This document shows positions 31,407 through 44,366 of a DNA stretch of 51,837 bases, piece after piece. This DNA is from Geodermatophilus chilensis (lineage in GTDB: Bacteria; Actinomycetota; Actinomycetes; Mycobacteriales; Geodermatophilaceae). The first letter of the stretch is position 1; each line of letters begins with the position of its first letter. The notes under the pieces were generated by a model that saw only the letters and a list, made by a program, of their open reading frames with translations, was not told where the DNA came from and searched no databases. The stretch lies in the NCBI RefSeq assembly GCF_002802985.1, contig NZ_NVPT01000015.1, forward strand, positions 1-51,837, in the 5' to 3' direction. The position numbers were made by a program, and so were the translations under genes.

Positions 31407-31748
31407 GTGGCTGGTGGTAACGCGATCCGGGGCACGCGGGTGGGCGCGGGTCCGATGGGGGAGGCCGAGCGCGGCGAGGCCGCTCCCCGCCGGCGGGTGC
31501 CGTTCTGGTGCGCCCAGGGGCACGAGACGCAGGTGTCCTTCGCCTCCGAGGCCGAGGTGCCCGAGCTGTGGGACTGCCCGCGCTGCGGCCTGCCGGCCGG
31601 CCAGGACCAGGCGGCCCCGCCGCCCGCGCCGCGCACCGAGCCCTACAAGACCCACCTGGCCTACGTCCGCGAGCGGCGCAGCGACGCCGACGGTGACGCC
31701 CTCCTCGAGGAGGCGCTGGCCAAGCTGCGGGCCCGCCGCGGTGCCTGA
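31407..31748 (+). CDS. rbpA: RNA polymerase-binding protein RbpA
   Basis: A 113-aa RbpA, which binds sigma-A and the beta subunit and stabilises the open complex in actinobacteria. N-terminal tail (MAGGNAIRGTRVGAGPMGE), zinc-binding core with WCAQGHE and WDCPRCGLPAGQ, basic linker and the sigma-interaction domain (TPYKTHLAYVRERRSD-type, here KTHLAYVRERRSDADGDALL). Start GTG 31407. A TAGACT box at 31350 is a possible -10. The stop lies just inside repeat copy C, which probably terminates the transcript. Confidence 0.95.
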   Translation: MAGGNAIRGTRVGAGPMGEAERGEAAPRRRVPFWCAQGHETQVSFASEAEVPELWDCPRCGLPAGQDQAAPPPAPRTEPYKTHLAYVRERRSDADGDALLEEALAKLRARRGA

Positions 31749-31806
31749 AGGACCCCTCTGCCCCCCCACCGCTCGCAGGCTCGCGGCGGGCCCCTGCAGA
31801 GGGGCC
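31744..31806 (-). repeat. Structured repeat, copy C, between convergent genes
   Basis: The outer stem is CCCCTCTGC (31753-31761) with GCAGAGGGG (31796-31804), perfect over 9 bp. On the minus strand the core reads CCGCGAGCCTGCGAGCGG, with CCGC/GCGG forming the inner stem, then GGTCCTTC. It is ~88% identical by eye to copy B in the opposite orientation. It sits exactly between the rbpA stop and the stop of the convergent 52-aa ORF and can act as a bidirectional terminator. Confidence 0.7.
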
Positions 31807-31814
31807 GGGAGTGC

Positions 31815-31973
31815 TCACTCCTGCGGCGGTCGAGGCAGGGGCACGGTCGTCCACGCCACCCAGGCCGCCCGGTCCCAGTTCCAGTAGCAGCCACGGTGCC
31901 CGAGCGGTGGCGCGGGGACGACCTCCCGCGCCGGGCGGGGCGTGCGGTGGACGGCGGGGGCGGAGAGCGTCAT
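31815..31973 (-). CDS. 52-aa tryptophan-rich small protein
   Basis: A short frame of MTLSAPAVHRTPRPARE, then VVPAPPLGHRGCYWNWDRAA, WVAWTTVPLPRPPQE and stop. The ATG at 31973 has GGAG six nt upstream on its strand. Five aromatic residues (one Tyr, four Trp) in a GCYWNW-x3-AAW-xx-W cluster are unlikely in random GC-rich sequence. No family recognised; possibly a peptide of 5.9 kDa associating with a membrane or protein. It lies 100 nt downstream of pgl on the same strand and ends at repeat copy C. Confidence 0.5.
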   Translation of the reverse strand: MTLSAPAVHRTPRPAREVVPAPPLGHRGCYWNWDRAAWVAWTTVPLPRPPQE

Positions 31974-32073
31974 CGCAGGCTCCACGGAGTGGGACGGTGG
32001 CCCGGCGGCTGCCGGGCGCGGACCGCACTCTGCTCGCCGGCCGGCGCCCCCACCAGGGTCGCCGGACCCCGGC

Positions 32074-41548: not shown

Positions 41549-41566
41549 GGTTCGCCGAGAGCGGAG
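41549..41566 (+). promoter_or_regulatory. Candidate ClgR operator upstream of clp gene
   Basis: GGTTCGCCGAGAGCGGAG matches the ClgR consensus as I recall it (WNNWCGCYNANRGCGWWS) at 16 of 18 positions, including the whole CGC-YNANR-GCG core. ClgR activates clp genes in actinobacteria. It is ~190 nt before the clp ATG and ~35 nt before ctaA. The rest of 41567-41757 has no gene; CCTCCCGGGT occurs twice (41648 and 41711 regions). Confidence 0.4.
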
Positions 41567-41757
41567 CGCGGGGCGGAAGCAACGGGTCGGTGTGCCGCGC
41601 TGTACGGGACGCGAGCGGCCCAGTCGCCGCCACCGGTGCCGGTGCGCCCTCCCGGGTAAGGGAGCTGCAGCGGGGAGCCCCCGCGAGCCGGTCCCCGAGT
41701 CCCGTGGGACCTCCCGGGTGCCCCATCGACCGATCCGACTCCCCTTGGACGTGAGGT

Positions 41758-44299
41758 ATGACCAACCCCTTCTTCCCGGGCCCCTACGGGAGCCCCTTCG
41801 ACGACTTCTTCGCCCGCTACCTGGGCGGGGAGCAGCGCACGCCCCGGCAGCGCGTCGACATCACCCAGTTCCTCAGCCAGCAGGCGCGGGAGCTGGTCAA
41901 CGCCGCCGCGCACCAGGCGGTGGCCGGTGGTAGCGCCGACCTGGACACCGAGCACCTGCTGTGGGCGATGACCGGTGACGAGACGACGCGGCAGTTCCTG
42001 GCCCGCTCCGGTGCCGACCCCCGACCAGCTGCGCGCCGCCCTGGAGCAGCAGCTGTCGCGGGGTGAGCCCCGGGACGAGTCGCCGTCCCTCACCCCGGCC
42101 GCCAAGCACGCCCTGCTCGACGCCCACCGCGTCTCGCGTGCCCTCGGCTCGACCTACATCGGCCCCGAGCACCTGCTGTTCGCCCTGGCCGTCAACCCGG
42201 ACTCCCCGGGCGGGCGGGTGCTGCGCCAGCGCGGCGTCACCCCCGAGGCGCTGCAGCAGGCCGCCACGGGCGGCGGCCAGCCCGGCGGCGGGCGCCCCGG
42301 CGGCCCCGGGCAGGGACAGTCGAGCACCCCGACGCTGGACGAGTACGGCCGCGACCTGACCGAGATGGCCCGCAACGGCCAGATCGACCCGGTGATCGGC
42401 CGGGAGGACGAGATCGAGCAGACCGTCGAGGTGCTCTCCCGGCGGCGCAAGAACAACCCCGTGCTCATCGGCGAGGCCGGCGTCGGCAAGACGGCGATCG
42501 TCGAGGGCATCGCGGCCCAGATCGTCCAGGGTGACGTCCCGGAGACGCTGCGCGGCCGGCGGCTGGTCGAGCTGGACCTCACCGGTCTGGTGGCCGGGAC
42601 CCGCTACCGCGGTGACTTCGAGGAGCGGCTCAAGAAGATCATGGACGAGATCCGCGAGCACTCTGACGAGGTCATCGTCTTCATCGACGAGCTGCACACC
42701 GTCGTCGGCGCGGGTGCCTCGGAGGGCTCCGGCGGCGCGGGCAACATGCTCAAGCCGGCCCTGGCCCGCGGCGAGCTGCACATCATCGGCGCCACCACGC
42801 TCGACGAGTACCGCCGCAACATCGAGAAGGACGCCGCCCTGGAGCGCCGGTTCCAGCCGATCCTCGTCAGCGAGCCCGGCGTCGAGGACACCGTGCAGAT
42901 CCTCTGCGGGCTGCGCGACCGGTACGAGGCCCACCACGAGGTGCGCTTCACCGACGACGCGATCCGGGCCGCGGTCGAGCTCTCGGACCGCTACATCACC
43001 GACCGCCACCTCCCGGACAAGGCCATCGACCTGATCGACCAGACCGGGGCCCGGGTGCGCCGGCGGGTCAAGACCCCGCCCACGGACCTGCGCGGGCTCG
43101 AGCAGGAGGTCGAGCGGCTGCAGCGGGAGAAGGACCAGGTCGTCGCCGCCGAGCAGTACGAGCGCGCCTCCGAGCTGCGCGACCAGCTCACCGAGGCGCA
43201 GGCCCGGCTGGAGCAGGCCCGCACCGGGGACGGCGGCACGTCCGGCGTCCCCGAGGTCGGCGTCGAGGACATCGCCGAGGTGGTCTCCCGCGCCACCGGC
43301 ATCCCGGTCAACCAGCTCACGCAGGAGGAGATGCAGCGGCTGCTGCAGCTCGAGGAGCACCTGCACCAGCGGGTCGTCGGGCAGGAGGACGCCGTCGGCG
43401 TCGTCGCCGAGGCGGTGCGCCGCTCGCGCGTCGGCCTGGGCGACCCCGACCGGCCCATCGGCAGCTTCCTGTTCCTCGGGCCCACCGGCGTCGGCAAGAC
43501 CGAGCTGGCGCGGGCGCTGGCCGAGGCGCTGTTCGGCGACGAGGACCGGATGATCCGGCTGGACATGAGCGAGTTCCAGGAGCGGCACACGGTCAGCCGG
43601 CTGGTGGGCTCGCCCCCCGGGTACGTGGGCTACGAGGACGCCGGCCAGCTCACCGAGGCGGTGCGCCGTCGTCCGTACTCGGTGGTGCTGCTCGACGAGA
43701 TCGAGAAGGCCCACCCCGACGTCTTCAACACCCTGCTGCAGGTGCTCGACGACGGGCGGCTCACCGACTCCCAGGGCCGCACGGTGGACTTCAAGAACAC
43801 CGTGCTGATCATGACGAGCAACCTGGGGTCGGAGCTGATCCAGGGTCGCAACACCCCGCTGGGCTTCGGCTCGGGGGACGGCGCGGCGGCCGACGCCGGG
43901 CTGCGCGAGCGGCTGATGCGGCGGCTGCGCGAGCAGTTCCGCCCGGAGTTCCTCAACCGGATCGACGAGATCGTGGTGTTCCAGCAGCGGGAGACCGAGC
44001 AGCTGGCCGAGATCACCCGGCTGCTGCTCGACGAGACCCGCCGCCGGCTGGCCGCCCAGGACATCGAGGTGGTCGTCACCGACGAGGCGGTCACCCGGAT
44101 CGCCGAGCACGGGTTCGAGCCGCAGTTCGGCGCCCGGCCGCTGCGCCGCGCCATCCAGCGGGAGGTCGACAACCCGCTGGCGCGGCTGCTGCTCGACGGC
44201 CGCCTGGAGCGGGGGCAGCGGGTCACGGTCGGCGTCCGCGACGGCCGGCTCGACTTCGCCGTCGACCAGCCCGCGAAGCCCGCGACCGTCGGCGTCTGA
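41758..44299 (+). CDS. Clp-family AAA+ ATPase (ClpC/ClpB-like), frameshifted in N-domain
   Basis: An ~846-aa Clp/Hsp100 unfoldase when read across a frameshift. The start at ATG 41758 ([21 protein letters not shown]) enters a Clp_N repeat domain; the frame then ends at 42066. The rest (from ~42018) reads to 44299: second Clp_N repeat ([20 protein letters not shown]), AAA-1 with [15 protein letters not shown] and [15 protein letters not shown], a UVR-type middle segment ([20 protein letters not shown]), and AAA-2 with [32 protein letters not shown] and the C-terminal [19 protein letters not shown]5 run at 42018-42022 where C4 would restore [14 protein letters not shown] explains the break. It may partner ClpP or work as a disaggregase. 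Confidence 0.85.
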
Positions 44300-44303
44300 G
44301 GAA

Positions 44304-44366
44304 GGACGGCCTCCCTGCAGGGTCCCGCCGCGAGCGTGCGAGCGGTGGGGGGCAGGCGGGTCCTTA
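44304..44366 (+). repeat. Structured repeat, copy B, after clp gene
   Basis: Core CCGCGAGCGTGCGAGCGG followed by TGGGGGGCAGGCGGGTCCTT. The ends pair as AAGGAC/GTCCTT and CCTGC/GCAGG, and the inner stem is CCGC/GCGG. Starts 5 nt after the clp stop. Confidence 0.7.

Follow-up and report, generated by a model that had tools for sequence, protein, structure and literature searches.

A folded repeat at three places in the window

The stretch analysed here, 51,837 nucleotides of Geodermatophilus chilensis DNA (contig NZ_NVPT01000015.1; hereafter the window), carries three copies, A to C, of a hairpin repeat of about 58 bases. All three are present where an initial annotation made from the sequence alone had proposed them (near 12706, 31744 and 44304), and two of them lie close to stop codons, as it had stated: copy B directly follows the stop of rbpA and copy C lies 7 bases past the stop of a clp ATPase gene. 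Copy A forms part of an amidase gene. Comparison with copies in related genomes leads us to regard the repeat as probably a non-autonomous mobile element that resembles repetitive extragenic palindromes (REPs) and enters behind stop codons. The features concerned are as follows, with scores referring to the covariance model R1 described below.

31749..31807, + strand: copy B in full length (AGGACC...GGGGCCG), immediately following the rbpA stop; R1 73.9 bits
31753..31761, + strand: copy B, outer stem, 5' arm, CCCCTCTGC
31765..31772, + strand: copy B, inner stem, 5' arm, CCCACCGC; the A in it stands where the mismatch is usually found
31773..31782, + strand: copy B, conserved loop, TCGCAGGCTC
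31783..31790, + strand: copy B, inner stem, 3' arm, GCGGCGGG
31796..31804, + strand: copy B, outer stem, 3' arm, GCAGAGGGG
44307..44364, - strand: copy C, reversed, 7 bases past the clp stop; R1 70.2 bits
12705..12762, - strand: copy A, within the amidase gene, in frame, opposite strand; R1 74.6 bits
31407..31748, + strand: rbpA (RNA polymerase-binding protein; PF13397, E 2.3e-42), the gene preceding copy B; stop TGA at 31746-31748
41975..44299, + strand: clp ATPase gene preceding copy C; stop TGA at 44297-44299
11573..13084, + strand: amidase gene (PF01425, E 6.4e-76) with copy A as an extra segment

The outer stems quoted in the initial annotation (CCCCTCTGC/GCAGAGGGG, CCTGC/GCAGG and CTCTCCGC/GCGGAGAG) and its inner stems (CCGC/GCGG versus CCCC/GGGG) were verified. 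Taken by themselves, the window copies are unremarkable: folded on the element strand, copies A to C do not exceed shuffled sequences in stability (z = -0.74, 0.14 and -0.13), and a loose search of the window for the core returned five matches, a number equalled or exceeded by 16 of 100 shuffles. The case therefore depends on copies elsewhere; the fold of host copy L025, for example, reaches z = -3.37 relative to shuffles. The expectation that the repeat belongs to no named family held, as Rfam gave no match at the gathering threshold in the window and none at E ≤ 1 in 31600-31950. A search confined to the open-access literature, subscription papers lying outside it, found no paper on these repeats, and the available part of the G. 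obscurus genome paper makes no mention of such repeats (PMC3035280).

Size and distribution of the family

The model R1 comprises 20 sequences and 18 base pairs and was built from an in-phase subset of the first copies; a MAFFT alignment that included every first copy was rejected as a basis, since it put the outer stems out of register. Matches to the core pattern occur at 245 places in the host genome (131 + 114), as compared to 25 (13 + 12) for the reversed pattern used as control. R1 gave at least 160 host matches at E ≤ 0.01 (150 first-look candidates scored) and matched 86 of the 96 genomes of the host family, in 9 of 12 genera; the genome-wide R1 counts for host, family, order and class are lower bounds derived from scored candidates. 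The covariance-model search of the genome and of other Geodermatophilaceae thus returned hundreds of copies rather than three sites, in line with the dispersed family that had been proposed.

Copy number differs strongly between genomes. Pattern counts (control in brackets) amount to 245 (25) in G000, 379 (31) in G041 and 387 (25) in G078 and lie near control level in G094, with 26 (16), and G019, with 19 (17), and R1 matches among congeners number 0 in G094, 5 in G039 and 13 in G081 versus at least about 58 in many others. The 9 genomes sampled from the genera g5, g8 and g10 gave no R1 match; their assemblies are small and fragmented, and the zero may reflect either lineage or assembly quality. 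In the host order, R1 matches were obtained in 21 of 150 genomes, 18 of them in the host family and three elsewhere with one or two matches, and in the class in 3 of 296, namely the host and G234 and G491, both of one other genus. In these distant cousins from another order (L234-L241), the loop TCGCARGCTC and the plan of the inner stem are kept and the outer stems differ, with L236 lying directly after TAG and L238 directly after TAA. Across 396 genomes of the phylum, a pattern with free stems matched the host at 166 places, G234 at 4 and 12 further genomes at a single place each. Its reversed control gave none in the host and G234 and 8 places in 7 other genomes, and the single hits are therefore at chance level.

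At G020:C24:140449-140638, three copies form a tandem array with a period of 66 bases. The host contigs C16, C24, C198, C312, C319 and C353 start about 6 to 260 bases from a copy, as if the assembly had broken at repeats.

Conservation of the fold

Unless stated otherwise, the counts that follow refer to the 142 places matched by R1 in 1,343,366 bases (1.34 Mb) of Geodermatophilus DNA, consisting of the window and four syntenic stretches, with gene calls from a simple script based on codon usage that are firmer for stops than for starts. Amidase loci, orthologous gene ends, distant cousins, nested copies, empty-site comparisons and orthologues of the window copies were read partly by eye.

Written in the usual orientation, the sequence of the element is AAGGACC - outer arm - CCC[A/G]NNNN - TCGCARGCTC - NNNNCGGG - NCCCT - outer arm - GGCC, and the 10-base loop TCGCARGCTC is conserved across copies. 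Analysis of the 142 copies revealed that 88.3% of cells are paired versus 74.4% after shuffling, that 314 cells have changed on both sides versus 110, and that the covariation score is 0.325 versus 0.119 when shuffled and 0.028-0.061 when slid. Both stems covary, and the conclusion drawn earlier from three copies, that structure is kept through paired changes, extends to the family. As this alignment had been fitted to the structure, it is worth noting that two further tests were independent of it. Among 98 copies picked on left arm and loop only, 6.16 of 8 inner pairs are formed versus 4.99 (maximum of 500 shuffles, 5.23) and 7.53 of 9 outer pairs versus 6.11 (maximum of 500 shuffles, 6.36); the free-stem pattern gave 56 hits with none in the control, and 3.41 of 4 positions are paired versus 2.60 (maximum of 2000 shuffles, 2.89).

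One inner position carries an A.C mismatch in 88 of 139 copies and a G.T mismatch in none. Overall, A.C exceeds G.T by 152 to 46, an excess that comes almost wholly from two inner positions, so that an assignment of the working strand from wobble pairs was dropped and no claim of one strand as the working RNA is made.

Position behind stop codons

While 14 of the 142 copies lie inside called genes, 128 lie outside, and 117 of the latter have their AAGGACC end directed at the neighbouring gene's stop. Nine copies without a clear GGAC anchor were dropped from the spacing counts, leaving 133, of which 122 are intergenic. Of these 122, 67 begin at -1 to +8 relative to a stop of the same direction, where random placement averages 2.9 and reaches 9 at most in 1000 rounds, and the closeness to stops noted for two window copies is therefore general. 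The commonest spacing is exactly 4 bases (40 copies, all after TGA), and 39 of these 40 follow CTGA, as compared to a C before 62.5% of TGA stops generally (p = 2e-7). Called stops offer CTGA 676 times, and the rest of the intergenic DNA, counted on both strands, 820 times; 39 of the 43 copies with CTGA at spacing 4 are at called stops (p = 6e-10), and two of the remaining four sites resemble stops of uncalled genes in open frame and codon composition.

A second read-out, of high-scoring copies, started from 110 loci, 7 of them unreadable, and was reduced to 88 by merging identical copies. In this non-random sample, with open frames of at least 60 codons taken without coding test or control, 29 of 43 distinct host copies and 34 of 41 from other genomes (including L230 and L231 from other families of the order) lie at most 8 bases after an open frame. 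Pure CTGA targeting was rejected as the full answer, given that other intergenic CTGAs are hardly used and that TAG and TAA stops occur. The preference for working stops over other CTGAs is consistent both with targeting linked to translation or transcription and with survival.

Filled, empty and nested sites

Among the comparisons listed, orthologous gene ends hold a copy in one genome, none in another and a different subfamily in a third. In another genome, the two flanks of 29 of the 142 copies align at a short distance from each other, and for 18 of the 29 the model gives no hit at that place; of these 18 comparisons, 12, at 8 loci, are remnant-free by eye, and several of the "empty" sites hold remnants. 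No target-site duplication was seen by eye in the 18 comparisons, the flanks of which are 74-97% identical. In the 12 remnant-free ones, 4-25 target bases are missing, with ends that are approximate at this flank identity, and no fixed deletion size could be established from the BLAST gaps, which span -2 to 36 bases in the 18 comparisons. Filled and empty orthologous sites, together with the very unequal copy number among congeners, bear out the mobility that had been suggested. In addition, among 26 orthologous pairs whose left flanks match, 13 have elements that are at most 80% identical, and sites have therefore been re-used or exchanged.

As for the window copies, the orthologue of copy B at the rbpA stop of G078 shows zero differences at aligned positions, and the same site holds a nested pair in G092 and altered remains in G082 and G041. 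The site of copy C behind clp has GGAC but no copy in G078 and G092.

Nesting was flagged mechanically by a GGACC shortly upstream of a copy. This left end precedes 35 copies, 20 of which lie 20-40 bases behind a stop, as nesting predicts, and 5 of which also lie 0-10 bases behind a stop. In the clearest cases among those listed, such as obs:148302 versus poi and obs:275486 versus sic, the new copy replaces 14 bases of the old loop region, and nested copies follow CCGG/CCGT-like sites.

A second conserved piece similar to GTTCCAGCACGTCACC occurs in 20 of 123 right flanks (L155-L220), and in several cases half a further copy, the right half, comes after it. In one subfamily, the unit that moves may exceed 58 bases. 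In the G078 stretch near 8959 and in the G041 counterpart of position 226588 of that stretch, gene ends appear tandemly duplicated, with about 20 bases including the stop codon standing beside or instead of a copy.

Copies inside genes

The amidase containing copy A has its best match in G. siccatus (92%) and exceeds the FF-SDVD-LLLTPV form by 22 residues. A motif script applied to 63 loci, of which 39 were read, revealed 19 to 37 extra residues over this form in G. siccatus, G. poikilotrophus, G. ruber, Geodermatophilus sp. TF02-6 and Blastococcus sp. TF02-09, a short rest in G. obscurus DSM 43162 (L092) and no such insert at the other loci read. The element was confirmed by R1 in the host, G082, G092 and G041, the inserts of G. 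ruber and Blastococcus being known from the motif script. The G092 copy has another copy nested within it, and the reading frame remains open. The insertion is thus a repeat that has become protein, in several species and with a nested second copy in one. In a second coding case, tf2:93491, a copy with a tail stands in place of about 10 bases. The in-frame coding nature of copy A had been missed in the initial annotation, as had the nesting and the fixed orientation and spacing.

Proposed mode of spread and alternatives

The data directly support a family with a conserved fold, a bias in position and orientation, nesting, filled, empty and exchanged sites, and in-frame coding insertions. On this basis we lean towards a REP-like mobile element, non-autonomous and about 58 bases long, the folded strand of which is moved in trans and enters 3' of stops. 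The folded single strand, with its variable outer stem, its inner stem with the kept mismatch and its fixed loop TCGCARGCTC, is probably the form that is recognised, and an enzyme acting in trans probably moves it. Entry would occur 3' of a stop codon, preferably CTGA, in a single orientation with the AAGGACC end toward the stop, without visible target duplication and usually with loss of a short target stretch; older copies would be a further target, the newcomer inserting into their loop and replacing it. A single-stranded hairpin as substrate, an enzyme supplied in trans and stops as a target preference, rather than a place of mere survival, are the parts that we infer.

Single-strand transposition of the REP/IS200 type would explain most features, yet its enzyme was not found, and this is one of the points that weigh against the proposal. 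The Y1_Tnp/RAYT domain (PF01797) had no match in the 96 family genomes, with 5 of 14 control genomes positive, and none at E ≤ 1 in 5 genomes including G234 and G491, the hosts of the distant cousins. No recurring transposase-like gene was seen beside copies among the called genes of the stretches and of 60 host loci, a scan limited to the sampled stretches in which some of the loci are the same place. The proposal stands on comparative evidence, and the preference for stops could reflect survival there rather than targeting. Copy C is oriented opposite to most copies; 11 of the 128 copies outside called genes break the orientation rule. The high-scoring set contains more TAG and TAA stops (12 of 29 host copies, 9 of 34 others) than the 9.8% expected, at spacings other than 4, an excess that is absent in the four-genome set (5 of 62). 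In orthologous copies more than 80% identical, one-sided stem changes outnumber paired two-sided ones by 25 to 13, so that upkeep of the fold after insertion looks weak. Finally, the pattern overlooks subfamilies, as G022 has 16 matches versus 12 in the control, yet 44 R1 matches.

Were the element driven by an IS200/IS605 or RAYT transposase, as in REPs and in palindrome-associated transposable elements (PATEs), the Y1 enzyme would have to be too divergent for Pfam or lost. The folded strand with its kept mismatch, the left-only tetranucleotide, the fixed orientation and the lack of duplication all resemble single-strand transposition, but the PF01797 searches speak against it, and so does the missing target sequence, as loss of target bases is not typical of IS200/IS605 transposition; we regard this version as possible, if doubtful. 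A further variant, which we find rather questionable, is that an event linked to translation or transcription steers the hairpin to working stops, for example through mRNA free of ribosomes or an R-loop that begins at the stop, and that the enzyme is unlike any REP/IS200 transposase. Copying through RNA by a reverse transcriptase would fit the sense orientation behind stops, as expected for insertion through mRNA. RVT_1 is present in 44 of the 96 family genomes but was not found in the copy-rich G000, G041, G082 and G092, a comparison of presence and absence that disfavours a reverse transcriptase as mobiliser and makes a retro-element very improbable.

Other explanations dispense with a transposing enzyme. 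A functional element of the 3' untranslated region, selected for transcription termination, protection of the mRNA 3' end or translation termination and spread by gene conversion, would account for copies directly behind stops in the orientation of the gene, for the favouring of stop CTGAs over other intergenic CTGAs, for the kept fold and for the 13 of 26 orthologous pairs that look exchanged. It is nevertheless unlikely in our view, because orthologous genes manage without a copy, copies occur in frame inside genes and native terminator-like hairpins persist, as judged by eye, downstream at some filled and empty sites. Moreover, a hairpin 4 bases past the stop would sit beneath the terminating ribosome and be covered by it. 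Nor is the initial description as terminator-like supported: in none of the 142 copies are the 18 bases that follow the hairpin, read in gene direction, host to a T-rich run, and from the sequence an intrinsic terminator for the upstream gene is not supported; an A-rich run before the hairpin, found in 11 of 142 copies, would serve the opposite strand. Covariation of the stems could in turn arise without recognition of the fold, by template switching during replication, since quasi-palindrome correction is a known mutational process that yields paired changes without selection. This process should, however, erase mismatches, yet an A.C mismatch stands at one fixed position in 88 of 139 copies; the loop stays fixed, dispersal and stop adjacency would be unexplained, and we consider it quite improbable as the source of the pattern.

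Comparison with known elements

The label REP, also used in the initial annotation, is not supported in the strict sense, as the repeat has neither a GTAG nor a CGTC tag and none of the 96 family genomes encodes a detectable RAYT-type transposase. Within the 10 bases before GG in 133 copies, GTAG occurs 3 times, CGTC once and CTGA 57 times; by eye, GTAG was seen in 5 of the 43 host copies of the high-scoring set. The nearest kind described in the available part of the literature are nevertheless the GTAG and CGTC REPs. GTAG REPs are high-copy, short palindromes that are mostly extragenic, show alternative complementary stem residues in their subfamilies, touch stop codons (the GTAG termini often supply TAG) and have some copies in open reading frames; as far as the accessible part of this source goes, they are listed for Proteobacteria, Cyanobacteria, Chloroflexi and the PVC group, and words beginning with "actinobacter" do not occur in its main text (PMC3733652). 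Our element shares their habits, from the high copy number to the contact with stop codons and the occasional copies in open reading frames. In contrast to GTAG REPs, it lacks the tag, folds into a longer hairpin in two parts whose 10-base loop is fixed, has CTGA on the target side, comes without a Y1 transposase in the 96 family genomes and resides in an actinobacterial host. CGTC REPs are likewise short, high-copy palindromes seemingly without a dedicated transposase, according to the same part of the source (PMC3733652). They differ in their tag (found in 1 of 133 copies here), in a stem of 8-9 base pairs and a loop of 4-5 as described there, and in the phyla reported.

The likeness to PATEs and other non-autonomous IS200/IS605 derivatives is one of principle. 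These move as a one-strand hairpin next to a left-side target tetranucleotide, in fixed orientation and without target duplication, and the repeat described here would work in a similar way. It differs in having one hairpin rather than two ends, in that no Y1 transposase was found and in the bases missing at its target. A fixed tetranucleotide of the IS200/IS605 style is suggested by CTGA in 39 of 40 copies at spacing 4, yet CCGG/CCGT-like sites of nested copies and TAG/TAA sites occur. A classical miniature inverted-repeat transposable element would be expected to leave a target-site duplication, whereas target bases are missing here. Rickettsia palindromic elements are palindromic repeats tolerated in frame within genes, as in the amidase, although coding copies are a minority here (14 of 142) and the likeness is one of description.

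We therefore call the element REP-like, fold-conserved and mobile, but without the tags or the enzyme of REPs. If this is true, it would represent a large actinobacterial REP-like family lacking the REP enzyme, with a directly testable spacing rule behind stop codons. It would bear on whether gene ends can guide insertion and, as with the CGTC REPs, on how repeats of the REP type spread when no transposase is found.

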